Shown in pieces: positions 25,108-30,641 of a stretch of 42,424 nucleotides of DNA (positions are counted from its first letter, which is position 1; the number at the start of each line of letters is the position of its first letter). The position numbers were made by a program, and so were the translations under genes. Location of the stretch: NCBI GenBank assembly GCA_009921765.1, contig RFXC01000009.1, positions 1 through 42,424 on the forward strand, written 5' to 3'. The notes under the pieces are model-generated. The model saw only the letters and a program-made list of their open reading frames with translations. It did no database searches and was not told the DNA's origin. This stretch comes from Betaproteobacteria bacterium. Lineage in GTDB: Bacteria; Pseudomonadota; Gammaproteobacteria; Burkholderiales; Burkholderiaceae.

Positions 25108-26162
25108 CGAGGTGTCACGGGCGCGGCAGGCGCCCCGTCCGGCCGCTTGTAGCGGTTGTAGCCCCAGAGATACTGATGGGGAGCAAGGCGAACCAGTTCC
25201 TCCATCTGGGCGTTGAGCGCTTCCGGCGTCGGCAAGGACTCGAAGGCCTGGAGCCGGATCCGCCAGCCGCCCCGGACCCGCTCACCCACTGCGATCACCA
25301 CCGAAGCGCCCGTTGCCTGCGCAAGTTTCATGGGGAGCGTCATGGTGAAGGCGGGCTCGCCGAAAAATCTGGCCCAGCGGCCTTCGCCGGCGCCTGGAAC
25401 CTGATCGGGGAGCACGCCCACCGCGGCGCCCGCGCGCAAGGCCCGCAGCATCGCCCGCACGCCCGAGAGCGCGGCCGGTACGGGATGAAGCCCCTCCCCG
25501 CCCCGGGCCCGCGCAAGAAGCGCCCCCAGTGCGGGCTTGCGCGGCGGGCGAAACATCACCGTGATGGGTGCGCGCAGCGCATACCACCGCGCGGTGACCT
25601 CAAACGCACCAAGATGCGGGGTGAGAAAGAGAATGCCGCGGCCAGCTCGCTCGGCCGCCTCGAGCACCGCGAGATCATCACAGCGAACACGGCGGGCGAT
25701 CGCCGCAGACGGCCGCATCCAGATAAAAGGGAGTTCGCCCGCCATCCGGCCCGCCTCGATCGCGGCTCGCAACATGAGCGCCACGCCCCGATAGCCCGCG
25801 CGGCCGAGATTGGCGCGCAACTTCCCCCGGTAGCTCGCGGACAGGGCGAGCGCAGCAAGCCCCGCCGTGGCGCCCAGCCCCCGCGCCGCGCCAAGCGGCA
25901 AACGGGCGAGCGCACTGGCGAGCCCGACCAGCCAGCGTCCGGTCGCCTCGGGTGGAGGCGCCTGCTCTTGACGCGCCGGCGCGGCCGGTGACGAAGCGGC
26001 GCCCGAGCCCGGTCCGGGCGGGGAGGCAGATGACGGTGCACGCGGTGGCACCACAGGGTCGGCGGACATGACGGGTGGAGCTGGATGGGGCATCGGACCG
26101 GGGTCGGTCGGCGCAAACCCGAAAGCGTACGCTTCCTGCGCGATCATGGTGGAGTAGGCCAT
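25104..26162 (-). CDS. LpxL/HtrB-type acyltransferase, HX4E copy with Pro-rich N-terminus
   Basis: A second acyltransferase, paralogous to its neighbour. HX4E occurs in [14 protein letters not shown], still within the accepted HX4(D/E) motif; the end is [15 protein letters not shown]. The first 75 or so residues before the conserved [14 protein letters not shown] are Pro/Ala/Ser-rich and not seen in the family, so the start is doubtful: ATGs at 26162, 26147, 26093 and 26069 all lack a good ribosome site. I keep the longest. It is divergent from metK with 259 nt between. The pair suggests two successive secondary acylations, which is inference. Confidence 0.82.
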
Positions 26163-26228
26163 ACGGTGCCGCGCAGTCTATGCGAAGCGAGGCGACCTGC
26201 ACGACGCTTTCGCACACGCGAAGCCGGC

Positions 26229-26234
26229 TATAAT
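26229..26234 (+). promoter_or_regulatory. -10 box (TATAAT) of the metK promoter
   Basis: A perfect TATAAT in otherwise G+C-rich sequence, about 190 nt before the metK GTG. The -35 at 17-nt spacing (GCTTTC) is weak. Predicted transcription would begin near 26241, just before the structured leader. Confidence 0.5.
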
Positions 26235-26243
26235 TCGCGTTGC

Positions 26244-26325
26244 CGAGTTAAGGACAACTTGCGGGGCAGGGGCCGATCAGGTCCGAAATACCGCTAAAGC
26301 GTCGCCGCTTCTCCAAAGATCGGCC
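26244..26325 (+). ncRNA. Candidate structured 5' leader (possible riboswitch) of metK
   Basis: Two mutually exclusive folds can be drawn by hand. Fold A: CTTGCGG (26258-26264) pairs with CCGC plus AAG (26291-26294, 26297-26299, TA bulged), enclosing an internal loop and a nested hairpin GGGCC (26270-26274) with GGTCC (26280-26284), loop GATCA. Fold B: GGCCGATC (26271-26278) pairs perfectly with GATCGGCC (26318-26325), and AAGCG (26297-26301) pairs with CGCTT (26306-26310) over loop TCGC. Fold B uses bases of both helices of fold A. A further GGAC (26252-26255)/GTCC (26281-26284) pairing would make a pseudoknot with the CTTGCGG helix. I do not recognise a SAM-I, SAM-II or SAH core here. Function as a SAM sensor is inferred from the gene downstream. 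Confidence 0.45.
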
Positions 26326-26340
26326 ACGCCGAAGGCAAGC

Positions 26341-26374
26341 CCGCGGCGCAGGTGCCTGTCACCGTCCGCCGCGG
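26341..26374 (+). other. Long hairpin in metK leader
   Basis: CCGCGGCG (26341-26348) pairs perfectly with CGCCGCGG (26367-26374); inside, GGTG (26351-26354) pairs with CACC (26360-26363) over loop CCTGT. There is no T-run after it, so it is not a standard intrinsic terminator. It ends about 37 nt before the ribosome site. It may form the expression platform of the leader or a Rho-related pause element; that is inference. Confidence 0.5.
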
Positions 26375-26421
26375 ATGCCGTCCAGTCGAACCGTTCCGAC
26401 GACATTTCAGAGGAGAAAGCT

Positions 26422-27582
26422 GTGGCCAACGATTATCTGTTTACTTCCGAATCCGTCTCCGAGGGTCACCCCGACAAGGTGGCTGACCAGATCTCGGACG
26501 CAATCCTCGACGCCATCCTTGCGCAGGACAAGACCTCGCGCGTGGCGGCCGAAACCCTTTGCAATACCGGTCTGGTGGTGCTCGCGGGCGAAATCACCAC
26601 ACGGGCCAACGTCGACTACATCCAGGTCGCGCGCGACACGCTGAAGTCGATCGGCTATGACAACACCGATTACGGCATCGACTACAAAGGCTGCGCCGTC
26701 CTGGTCGCCTACGACAAGCAGTCGCCCGACATCAAGCAGGGCGTGGACGCCGCACACGACGACAACCTCGAGCAGGGTGCGGGCGATCAAGGCCTGATGT
26801 TTGGCTACGCCTGTGACGAAACGCCGGAGCTCATGCCCTCGGCCATCTACTACTCGCATCGCCTGGTCGAGCGCCAGTCGCAGGTGCGTCGCAGCGGCAA
26901 GCTCGGCTGGCTTCGCCCTGATGCCAAATCACAGGTGACCTTGCGCTACGCCGATGGCCGCCCGGTCTCGGTCGACACCGTGGTGCTGTCAACCCAGCAC
27001 GCACCCGACGTCTCCATGGAAACCATTCGCGAAGGCGTGATCGAGGAGATCATCAAACCAGTGATCCCGGCCTCGCTCATCAAGGGCAACATCAATTACC
27101 TGATCAACCCGACCGGCCGGTTTGTGGTGGGCGGCCCGCAGGGTGACTGCGGTCTCACAGGCCGCAAGATCATTGTCGACACCTATGGCGGTGCGGCCCC
27201 GCACGGTGGCGGCGCGTTCTCGGGCAAGGACCCCTCCAAGGTCGACCGGTCGGCCGCTTACGCCGCGCGCTATGTGGCGAAAAACATCGTCGCAGCCGGG
27301 CTGGCCAGCCGCTGCCTGGTGCAGGTGTCCTACGCCATCGGGGTCGCGCGGCCCACGTCGGTATGGGTCACCACCCAGGGCACGGGCAAGGTGAGCGACG
27401 CGCGCATCGCGGAACTGGTGCAGCAGCACTTCGATCTGCGTCCGAAGGGCATCGTCAAGATGCTGGACCTCCTTCGCCCCATCTATCGCAAGACCGCCGC
27501 TTACGGACATTTCGGGCGCGACGAGCCGGAATTCAGCTGGGAGCGCACCGATCGCGCCGAGGCCCTCAAAGCGTCGGCATGA
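26422..27582 (+). CDS. metK: S-adenosylmethionine synthetase
   Basis: MetK makes SAM from methionine and ATP. The 386-residue product has [20 protein letters not shown] at the N-terminus (shown in part), the hexapeptide-type [12 protein letters not shown], and the glycine-rich phosphate loop [16 protein letters not shown]. The start is GTG, with GGAG 8 nt before it. Preceded by a roughly 180-nt structured leader; followed by the ahcY-metF genes of the same cycle. No frame problem seen. Confidence 0.97.
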
Positions 27583-28258: not shown

Positions 28259-28373
28259 GCAATGAACGGATGGTCGCTGTTGAACGGCGCTCGTTGACCC
28301 GCGGTCTGTCCGAGGTCGGCGAGCACCCGCCACCGTCCCGTGCTGACCGCTTCATCACCGATGGAGTGTGTTC

Positions 28374-29801
28374 ATGTCTGCCGTTCTCAAATCCGCGCCC
28401 GCCGCGCCTGACTACCACGTTGCCGATATCGGGCTCGCCGACTGGGGCCGCAAGGAAATCCGCATCGCCGAAACCGAGATGCCCGGGCTGATGGCGATCC
28501 GCGAAGAATTCGCTGCCCGCCAGCCCCTCAAAGGCGCGCGCATCACCGGGTCGCTTCACATGACGATCCAGACCGCAGTGCTGATCGAGACCCTCGCCGC
28601 CCTGGGCGCGCAGGTGCGCTGGGCGTCCTGCAACATCTTCTCCACGCAGGATCACGCGGCCGCAGCCATCGCTGCCGCCGGCATTCCGGTATTCGCCTAC
28701 AAGGGCGAGAACCTGGTCGAATACTGGGAATTCACGCACCGCATCTTCGAGTGGGCCGATGGCCAGCCGAGCAACATGATCCTGGACGACGGCGGCGATG
28801 CCACGTTGCTCCTGCATCTGGGCACGCGTGCGGCGAGCGACCCCTCGGTGATCACCAATCCGCAGAGCGAAGAAGAAACCGCGCTGTTCGATTCCATCCG
28901 CAAGCGCCTCGCCACCGATCCGGGCTGGTACGAGCGGCAGCTGAAGTCGATCGTGGGCGTGACCGAAGAAACCACCACCGGCGTCAAACGCCTCTACCAG
29001 ATGGCCGCCAATGGCGAACTCGCCTTCCGCGCCATCAACGTGAATGATTCGGTCACCAAGAGCAAATTCGACAACCTCTATGGTTGCCGCGAATCGCTGG
29101 TTGACGGCATCAAGCGCGCCACCGATGTGATGGTGGCGGGCAAGGTGGCGGTGGTGGCAGGCTATGGCGACGTGGGCAAGGGCTCGGCGCAGGCGCTGCG
29201 CGCGCTCTCCGCCCAGGTCTGGGTCACCGAGATCGACCCGATCTGCGCGCTGCAGGCTGCGATGGAAGGCTACCGCGTGGTGACCATGGAATACGCCGCC
29301 GACAAGGCCGACATTTTCGTGACCGCCACCGGCAACCGCGACGTGATCACCTTCGAGCACATGAAGCGCATGAAGGACCAGGCGATCGTCTGCAATATCG
29401 GACACTTCGACAACGAAATCGACATCGCATCCGTCAAGGACCATTGCCGCTGGGAAAACATCAAGCCCCAGGTCGACCACATCATCTTCCCCGACGGCAA
29501 GCGCATCATCATGCTGGCCGAGGGCAGGCTGGTGAACCTGGGCTGCGGCACTGGCCATCCGTCTTTCGTCATGTCGTCATCGTTTGCCAACCAGACCATC
29601 GCGCAGATCGAGCTCTGGACGCACCGCGACGACTACGAGTCCGGCAAGGTCTATGTGCTGCCCAAGCACCTCGACGAGAAAGTGGCGCGTCTGCATCTGA
29701 AGAAAATCGGCGCCATGCTGACCGAGCTGTCGCCCGGGCAGGCAAGCTACATTGGCGTAGCGGTCGACGGCCCTTACAAGCCCGACACCTACCGCTACTA
29801 A
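28374..29801 (+). CDS. ahcY: Adenosylhomocysteinase
   Basis: AhcY hydrolyses S-adenosylhomocysteine to adenosine and homocysteine, removing the product inhibitor of methyltransferases. The 475-residue protein has [18 protein letters not shown] near the start, the substrate segment [37 protein letters not shown]-binding [16 protein letters not shown] and the end [10 protein letters not shown]. The ATG has GGAG 8 nt upstream; a GTG 6 nt earlier is not needed. Controlled by the SAH riboswitch just upstream (115 nt of unassigned leader between). metF follows 12 nt after the stop. Confidence 0.97.
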
Positions 29802-29813
29802 GGCCTCGATCCA

Positions 29814-30641
29814 ATGAGGCCGCCGGTCAGTTTCGAGTTTTTTCCGCCGAACACGACCGAGGGTGAAGCACGGCTGCGCGGGGTGCATGAGCGCCTCGCG
29901 CGGGCCGCGCCCGAGTACTTCAGCGTCACCTACGGCGCGGGTGGCGCCACCCGCGACAAGACGCTCCGTACGGTGCTCGAGATCGCAGCCGCCGGGTCGG
30001 CGGTGGCGCCTCACCTGTCGTGCATTGGCGCCACGCGCGAATCGGTTGACGAGTTGCTCGCGCTCTACCGCAGTCACGGCATCCGCAGGCTGGTGGCGCT
30101 GCGCGGTGATCTTCCCTCGGGCATGGTCGACACGGGCGATTTTCGCTACGCCGCCGATCTGGTGCGGCATGTGCGTGCGGCAGGCGGCGACTGGTTCGAG
30201 ATCGCGGTGGCCGCGTATCCTGAGGTGCACCCGCAGGCTGCCTCGGCGCAATCCGATCTCGACGCGCTGGTGGCCAAGATGGCCGCTGGGGCGAACACCG
30301 CGATCACACAGTACTTCTACAACGTCGACGCCTTTCTGTGGTTCAGGGACGCAGCGGTCGCAGCCGGAGTTAACGCGCCGATCGTCCCCGGCATCATGCC
30401 GATTACCAACTACCGTCAACTTGCGCGGTTCTCGGATGCATGCGGCGCCGAGATTCCGCGCTGGATCCGGCAGCGGCTGATGCAGTTCGGCGACGATCTG
30501 CCTGCCATCCGCGCGTTCGGTCAGGAGGTGGTCGCAGCGCAGTGTCGACGTCTGATCGCCGAAGGGGTGGATGCGCTTCACTTCTACACCATGAACCAGG
30601 CCGAGCCCACGCTCGAACTGCTCGCGGCAGCGGGGGCCTAG
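29814..30641 (+). CDS. metF: 5,10-methylenetetrahydrofolate reductase
   Basis: MetF reduces methylene-THF to methyl-THF, the methyl donor for methionine synthesis, using FAD. The 275-residue TIM-barrel protein starts with VSFEFFPPNT (catalytic Glu), then FSVTYGAGGATRDKT, HLSCIGATRESV, RRLVALRGDLPSG, and GANTAITQYFYN. Length is normal. It is in one run with ahcY, completing the methyl cycle together with metK. The stop overlaps the convergent cyclo-ligase by 4 nt. Confidence 0.96.
   Translation: MRPPVSFEFFPPNTTEGEARLRGVHERLARAAPEYFSVTYGAGGATRDKTLRTVLEIAAAGSAVAPHLSCIGATRESVDELLALYRSHGIRRLVALRGDLPSGMVDTGDFRYAADLVRHVRAAGGDWFEIAVAAYPEVHPQAASAQSDLDALVAKMAAGANTAITQYFYNVDAFLWFRDAAVAAGVNAPIVPGIMPITNYRQLARFSDACGAEIPRWIRQRLMQFGDDLPAIRAFGQEVVAAQCRRLIAEGVDALHFYTMNQAEPTLELLAAAGA

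Follow-up and report, generated by a model that had tools for sequence, protein, structure and literature searches.

Several described RNA elements resemble the DNA segment analysed here. For SAM-II riboswitches, Barrick and Breaker predicted a homopurine pair, either G-G or A-A (PMC2258182, 2007), and U10 is a listed contact of the ligand (PMC11508383). In SAM-V, U19:A49, U20:A48, and G21 surround the bulged U47, which holds the SAM adenine, while A50 contacts the amino-acid end of SAM (PMC6061858). The legend of the SAM-II alignment in Corbino 2005 names Bordetella bronchiseptica (PMC1273637), and SAM-II in beta-proteobacteria is already mentioned in PMC2258182, so that, going by these passages of the two papers, the presence of SAM-II in this group has precedent. 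Tandem arrangements of SAM-II riboswitches whose outputs are mixed have been described as well (PMC9481103). In the portions of Leyn et al. 2014 (PMC4239095) considered here, beta-proteobacterial metK is under no known regulator, the search for one is reported as unsuccessful, and metK regulation is thought to be unconserved or the gene constitutive. The same paper describes a metXZ element of beta-proteobacteria, with a pseudoknot, a terminator, and metX or metZ downstream. Searches of open-licence PMC papers turned up no description of the metK leader; alignments in their supplements may contain one.

The window, a 42,424-nucleotide stretch of betaproteobacterial DNA, carries metK at positions 26422 to 27582 of the forward strand (SAM synthetase, 386 amino acids, GTG start; Pfam PF00438, PF02772, and PF02773). 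The metK leader runs from a TATAAT at 26229 to 26234 to the start codon. Sequence comparison confirms that this leader exists and is conserved, and the most fitting reading is a diverged riboswitch of the SAM-II type (SAM-II/SAM-V). We put a probability of roughly 0.8 on the reading that 26240 to 26303 form a SAM-II-type aptamer, with SAM-dependent shut-off of metK via a stem, P4, and an anti-Shine-Dalgarno segment. Comparison of related leaders shows conservation, covariation in the stems P1, P2, and P2a, homology to SAM-II, and covariation between the anti-Shine-Dalgarno and Shine-Dalgarno segments.

Architecture and covariation of the metK leader

The perfect TATAAT (26229 to 26234, forward strand, as are all features below), already pointed out in the earlier note, is a putative -10 promoter element shared by metK leaders. 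A site agreeing with TATAAT at 5 or more of its 6 positions directly precedes P1 in 62 of 66 of them, against 7.7 expected from shuffled letters, and its spacing to P1 is 6 to 7 nt in 54 of 66. Placed from this -10 position, transcription would start at or just 5' of P1; a promoter scan found no -35/-10 pair at the metK leader.

The leaders share a stem P1, a pseudoknot P2 (CUUGCGG with CCGC-U-AA-A-G), an extension P2a (GAC/GUC), and an optional hairpin P3. In the window, P1 pairs 26240 to 26244 with 26265 to 26269, the outermost P1 pair of the alignment (26239/26270) being unpaired here. The P1 loop GAGUUAA (26245 to 26251), which includes G26247 and A26250, would provide the third strand of a SAM-II-type triplex. 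There follow the P2a 5' strand GAC (26253 to 26255), the segment 26256 to 26257 with A26257, the putative homopurine partner of A26250 (A-A here), and the P2 5' strand CUUGCGG (26258 to 26264). P3, GGGCC-GAUCA-GGUCC at 26270 to 26284, lies in a linker of variable length and is often missing, the linker being too short for it in leaders such as L041, L049, and L060. The P2 3' strand CCGC-U-AA-A-G (26291 to 26299) and the P2a 3' strand GUC (26301 to 26303, covarying and shared with P4) complete the predicted aptamer.

The earlier note had drawn CTTGCGG (26258 to 26264) against CCGC-AA-G (26291 to 26299), with GGGCC/GGTCC (26270 to 26284) nested inside, as one of two competing folds. Both helices are present and correspond to P2 and P3, and P2 is paired in 45 of 45 aligned leaders, which were picked by a pattern demanding part of this helix. 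The GGAC/GTCC pseudoknot suggested there has the wrong partner: GAC at 26253 to 26255 pairs instead with GTC at 26301 to 26303, and this pairing covaries.

Two alignments bear on these helices. The first (A1) consists of 45 rows chosen by hand from 60 references, which are 60 of 67 finds of a regular expression (the other 7 being near-duplicate or badly cut); the expression demands TTA, CTTGC, and GCTAAAGCGT, and invariance at those bases is partly selection. Changes on both sides occur at 5 of 6 pairs in P1, 2 of 7 in P2, and 1 of 3 in P2a, and the remaining five P2 pairs never vary. P2a is paired in all 45 leaders, its outer pair shifting from G-C to A-U in 4 of them (GAC/GUC to AAC/GUU). 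The second alignment (A2) holds 110 matches at E<=1e-5 (108 distinct) from 98 chosen sources; the model behind it pairs only P1, so that the P2 pairs are absent from it, but was trained on A1, and the P2 and P2a pairs tested were defined by hand from A1. Here 96.9% of cells are paired, compared with 88.4% after shuffling, and 10 of 16 pairs are doubly changed. Sliding the partners by 1 to 3 columns leaves pairing at only 30 to 46%, and on all five measures used 0 of 500 shuffles match the alignment. P2 is paired in 98.4% and P2a in 94.7% of cases; 3 of 7 P2 pairs have changes on both sides, with GCGG/CCGC, GCAG/CUGC, and GCGA/UCGC as compensatory examples. The covariation and conservation across related metK leaders that the earlier note had proposed to look for are thus both strong. 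By energy alone, the fold of 26241 to 26421 does not stand out: its z is -1.48, and 15 of 200 shuffled sequences are equally stable.

Kinship with SAM-II and the ligand pocket

A scan with the Rfam SAM and SAH models, also proposed in the earlier note, gave no SAM family at the metK leader, even at E 10, on 801 or on 116 bases. SAM-I, SAM-III, SAM/SAH, SAM-VI, and SAH models have no match there, nor does SAM-V (RF01826). For SAM-II (RF00521), the cut-off of 36 bits is not reached at the leader, and the window contains no match at E<=10. Sub-threshold matches at the leader to sR36, mir-327, GRIK4, and others were dismissed as chance. On 16 further metK-leader loci, RF00521 scored two in the right place at 19.9 to 20.3 bits and the others not at all at E<=5, so that no metK leader exceeds the cut-off among the 17 tested.

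The kinship becomes visible from the other direction. R1, a covariance model trained on metK leaders only, with rough E-values from a short calibration, also detects metX, metZ, and tandem copies within the same taxonomic order. Forty R1 places were fetched from a sample of this order, and many precede MetZ- or MetX-type genes and have clear terminators of a hairpin and a T run; NCBIfam identifies MetX at L147 and L225 and MetZ at L148, L156, and L191, the other gene calls being by reading only. Among twenty loci searched with RF00521, four metX, metZ, or tandem 5' copies (L143, L147, L157, and L167) pass, at 44.8, 44.0, 42.1, and 38.2 bits, while 11 others score 27.4 to 33.4 bits, below the cut-off, and 5 have no match at E<=3. 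The same four copies match R1 at E 1.4e-8, 2.2e-8, 1.1e-8, and 1.1e-6. Because a model trained on metK leaders finds copies that pass RF00521, we consider the metK leader homologous to SAM-II. This homology, via the metX, metZ, and tandem copies, rules out a new riboswitch class. The undescribed SAM-sensing riboswitch of the earlier note therefore survives as a conserved, covarying leader with two competing states, for which SAM sensing is most likely, but not as a new class.

The divergence is considerable. R1 finds only 6 of the 22 RF00521 loci taken from the phylum's other classes (L200-L220 and L222, presumably mostly alpha-proteobacterial) at E<=1, with 14.2 to 24.2 bits, which sets the metK leaders clearly apart from the sequences underlying Rfam's SAM-II model. 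Across the sample of the order, RF00521 matches 168 of 300 genomes at E<=0.1 and 51 over the cut-off, a tally that includes chance matches, since 2 of 14 control genomes match at E<=0.1 (none over the cut-off). In G001, G011, G022, G023, and G030, the listed RF00521 matches sit elsewhere than the metK leader. Taken together, the comparisons suggest that the metK leader is a variant within SAM-II-type riboswitches that has diverged past Rfam recognition.

The surrounding genes are counted as support for this SAM-II-type reading. The sole gathering-level Rfam match in the whole window is an SAH riboswitch (RF01057, 28133 to 28299, 44.4 bits, cut-off 37), which precedes ahcY (28368 to 29801), with metF (methylenetetrahydrofolate reductase, 29814 to 30641) following. 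SAM and SAH sensors, in the metK and ahcY leaders, would then lie about 2 kb apart within one SAM-cycle cluster.

The core UUGC/GCUAAA is nearly invariant in the 110 copies, as in SAM-II and SAM-V, with GCUAAA invariant in 110 of 110. In the SAM-V register, U26259:A26297 and U26260:A26296 would correspond to the two U:A pairs, G26261 (paired with C26294) to G21, U26295 to U47, and A26298 to A50. The contact bases (third-strand UUU, UUGC, and GCUAAA) are invariant or nearly so except at U10, with the qualification that the search pattern and model favour them. A structured leader bound by a protein rather than a metabolite might also go unmatched by the Rfam SAM models, as the window does; conservation precisely at the SAM-contact bases and homology to SAM-II make this hardly credible. 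Positions 26250 and 26257, which from the wording of PMC2258182 appear to be its homopurine positions, are A-A in 96, G-G in 12, gapped in 2, and mixed in 0 of the 110 copies.

The exception is the U10 position. What we take to be the place of U10 within the SAM-II sequence falls at G26247 of the window, the assignment resting on alignment to the RF00521 consensus, and its counterpart in SAM-V is U8. Of 66 metK leaders, 60 have G at this position and 6 have U (GGUUUAA); among the 110 copies it is G in 75, and U is found in 11 of 12 G-G copies and in 21 A-A copies. This distribution, in which G prevails among the metK leaders and U among the canonical G-G copies, is what would be expected if the same SAM-II-type fold had, through the G for U10, changed its ligand (e.g., to SAH, methionine, or an adenosine compound) or the base triple formed with SAM. 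That alternative is very improbable, as U is restored in six leaders before the same gene and present in 21 A-A copies, the remaining contact bases vary little or not at all, and feedback by SAM would be expected to act on metK. A further reading, tentative and on balance unlikely, treats the metK leaders as a distinct SAM riboswitch subclass, with G in place of the triple-completing U, a re-tuned pocket, and the terminator swapped for a P4/anti-Shine-Dalgarno switch. In that case, the re-tuning would concern either affinity, for a higher SAM range where SAM synthetase should shut off, or the choice of ligand. Under the preferred reading of a SAM-II-type aptamer for SAM, the metK leaders would still provide a naturally altered form of a SAM pocket that has been studied in depth.

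Both kinds of copy occur in the nearest genome, which holds a GAUUUGA/G-G copy before metX (L225) and a GAGUUAA/A-A copy before metK. The metX copy scores 32.1 bits with RF00521, under the cut-off. In another member of the class (L223), a SAM-II-like copy with GAUUUG and G-G precedes metK at 34.1 bits, just below the cut-off, and may be intermediate between canonical SAM-II and the metK type.

Output of the leader

Directly 3' of GCUAAA lies GCGUCGCC, which is complementary to a downstream GGCNACGC and overlaps P2a. The resulting stem, P4, has moderate support and pairs the 5' arm GCGU-C-GCCG (26299 to 26307), which folding places in competition with P2/P2a, with the 3' arm CGGC-C-ACGC (26321 to 26329). 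Between the two arms is the anti-Shine-Dalgarno segment GCUUCUCC (26307 to 26314), which in the minimum-energy fold pairs with the Shine-Dalgarno region GGAGAAAGC (26412 to 26420).

These elements suggest how the leader could act. The aptamer (26240 to 26303), an H-type pseudoknot with a U-rich third-strand loop, would stand at the very 5' start of the metK mRNA. At high SAM, the ligand would bind the P2 triplex and fix P2 and P2a, withdrawing GCGUC (26299 to 26303) from P4; the anti-Shine-Dalgarno segment thus freed would pair with 26412 to 26420 and block translation of metK. At low SAM, P4 would form and sequester the anti-Shine-Dalgarno segment, and metK would be translated. SAM is the probable ligand, and switching probably runs through P4. 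SAM synthetase is usually under feedback by SAM. This feedback, together with the lower openness of the Shine-Dalgarno region when the aptamer is locked, leads us to infer that SAM turns the gene off.

The pairing of the anti-Shine-Dalgarno segment with the ribosome site was compared across 66 of 68 rows, as was P4, by permutations that ignore relatedness. Leaders pair with their own Shine-Dalgarno site at a mean of -17.0 kcal/mol, against -12.9 (sd 0.39) when sites are permuted, a difference reached in 0 of 10000 permutations. The own site beats the mean of the sites of the 8 nearest relatives in 41 of 66 leaders (Wilcoxon p 0.001), and is the best of all 66 sites in only 6, among the top five in 18, and at a median rank of 10. 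Against shuffled sites the mean z is -2.0, with z < -1.5 in 43 of 66, and long complements are found in L045, L049, and L026. The duplex of the window itself is ordinary (z -1.06; 37 of 65 other ribosome sites pair better). For P4, own arms reach -12.6 compared with -11.8 (sd 0.13) for permuted arms (0 of 10000 permutations), the listed 3' arms having been selected with a pattern designed to match them. Comparison with shuffled tails gives a mean z of -1.04, with z < -1.5 in just 20 of 66, and in L036, L041, L079, L034, and L069 P4 fits less well with its own tail than with foreign tails. Locking the aptamer strands lowers the openness of the Shine-Dalgarno region from 0.259 to 0.219 (lower in 46 of the 67 leaders in this test), a small shift; control locks give 0.310 but may partly cover the anti-Shine-Dalgarno segment, which makes the comparison generous.

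Other pairings of the leader fit less well. The second fold of the earlier note joined GGCCGATC (26271 to 26278) to GATCGGCC (26318 to 26325), together with AAGCG (26297 to 26301) and CGCTT (26306 to 26310). The first helix has 8 bp in the window and 7 bp in L003 but is not conserved: L002 and L004, from the same genus, offer complements of at most 4 and 6, and no more than 5 of 66 leaders reach 7 bp. It was therefore rejected as a conserved element. AAGCG/CGCTT is likewise present in the window, but the CGCTT partner follows in only 34 of 66 leaders. A switch made of the P1 3' strand and a second GUCGCC was dropped, the 3' GUCGCC being unchanged where P1 differs (read, uncounted). The 8+4-bp hairpin at 26341 to 26374 (CCGCGGCG/CGCCGCGG plus GGTG/CACC), between the anti-Shine-Dalgarno and Shine-Dalgarno segments, had been proposed as the output; the hairpin is there, but no T run follows it and an output role finds no support, and it is probably only a spacer. 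The pairing of 26307 to 26314 with the Shine-Dalgarno region at 26412 to 26420 is the better-supported output.

A SAM riboswitch could instead end transcription prematurely, by an intrinsic or a Rho-dependent mechanism, and not block the ribosome site. Many related SAM-II copies before metZ or metX have a hairpin and a T run, and a T run of at least 5 precedes the start codon in 9 of 66 metK leaders, in which termination may act. Such a run is absent from the window and from the other 57 leaders, no terminator-like site lies within 25900 to 26700, which counts against intrinsic termination, and the Shine-Dalgarno and anti-Shine-Dalgarno segments covary. We therefore regard early termination as an improbable general output, and retain the ribosome-site mechanism for the metK leader.

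Distribution and comparison with known systems

Searched against 101 relatives, the leader DNA matched strongly within its genus and, in many others, over about the first 105 bases; the search was run at E<=10, which makes its tally of 101 of 101 uninformative. Many metK upstream regions (80 named loci and 30 relatives) show GCCGAGUUAA-N-GACAACUUGCGGGGC followed further on by ACCGCUAAAGCGUC. R1, which scores the window (a member of its training set) at 71.2 bits, has full-length matches at 36 of the 80 named metK loci and one more partial match at a contig edge (L059). Going by record titles, the element is carried by Cupriavidus and others, among them Polynucleobacter, Pandoraea, Burkholderia, Paraburkholderia, Achromobacter, Bordetella (L052), Undibacterium, Oxalobacter, Curvibacter, Inhella, and Accumulibacter. 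At E<=0.1, R1 has no match at the metK loci of Gallionella, Methylotenera, Nitrosomonas, and gamma-proteobacteria, or at some loci titled as betaproteobacteria (L047, Burkholderiales; L048, a bin titled Bordetella parapertussis; and L072). A contig titled Mycobacteriaceae (L032) has the element and a MetK 82% identical, and is probably a mis-binned betaproteobacterial contig.

In whole genomes, R1 matches 65 of 74 members of the family of the window, covering all 16 genera, at E<=1e-5, 210 of 300 genomes in a sample of the order at E<=0.1, and 87 of 274 genomes of the class at E<=0.01, all three tallies pooling every gene context, with matches not all assigned to genes. Several of the weaker class-level matches, when inspected, were metZ-type SAM-II copies. 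The best 30 R1 places of the order (L111-L140) comprise 22 that precede metK, each with a single copy by a pattern-based count, and 8 that are tandem copies before other genes. Such a leader would probably enable many betaproteobacteria to stop making SAM once it is abundant.

Tandem copies were seen in L112, L116-L119, L126, L135, L141-L144, L182, L183, L186, and L230-L234. In these, a SAM-II-type copy, often with a terminator, is followed 100 to 200 nt on by a metK-type copy that lies before small proteins, several of which start MYDC or MFDC by reading; a MATE efflux transporter follows in L143. Seven small proteins, one of them behind the single copy L187 and six behind tandem copies, had no family in Pfam, and they may represent an undescribed family linked to SAM; NCBIfam gave none for the L163 ORF. 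Near two R1 copies other riboswitches appear. In L145, SAM-I/IV and SAM-II elements may be combined: a SAM-I/IV riboswitch (16 to 119, 66.3 bits) lies about 470 nt 5' of an R1 copy, before a 518-aa ORF. In L147, a c-di-GMP-I-GGC match (2855 to 2936, 50.9 bits, cut-off 59) lies near the metX copy on the opposite strand.

The tandems described in PMC9481103 have, in the text available from that paper, the same order of a terminator-type and then a ribosome-site-type copy that we meet before other genes, whereas metK leaders are single-copy (22 of 22 metK loci in L111-L140). SAM-V (RF01826), known from marine bacteria such as Pelagibacter, shares with the metK leader the core, a P3 hairpin between P1 and P2, and, according to the sections of PMC6061858 drawn on here, translational control. 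SAM-V, however, places the Shine-Dalgarno sequence in P2a, while the metK leader has a separate proposed anti-Shine-Dalgarno segment about 100 nt 5' of the Shine-Dalgarno region; its P2a 3' strand ends at 26303, 109 nt 5' of 26412, which differs from the SAM-V arrangement.

The metXZ element of Leyn et al. resembles the MetX and MetZ copies found here, which are SAM-II-like, and is not linked to SAM-II in the parts of PMC4239095 at hand. Its genes, pseudoknot, and terminators suggest that it corresponds to these SAM-II copies. To the missing metK regulator stated in the same paper, the metK leader offers an answer.

The closest relative is SAM-II itself (RF00521, SAM_alpha). The metK leader has the same H-type pseudoknot, P1, CUUGC/GCUAAA core with a bulged U, P2a extension, and homopurine pair, and likewise a promoter just 5' of P1 and methionine or SAM genes 3'. 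Unlike SAM-II, it has A-A for G-G, mostly G at U10, and an optional P3, and in the window it precedes metK, goes undetected by RF00521, and probably uses the ribosome site instead of a terminator as its output. The metK leader thus points to a widespread SAM-II subclass, which in all 17 metK leaders tested stays below the RF00521 cut-off.
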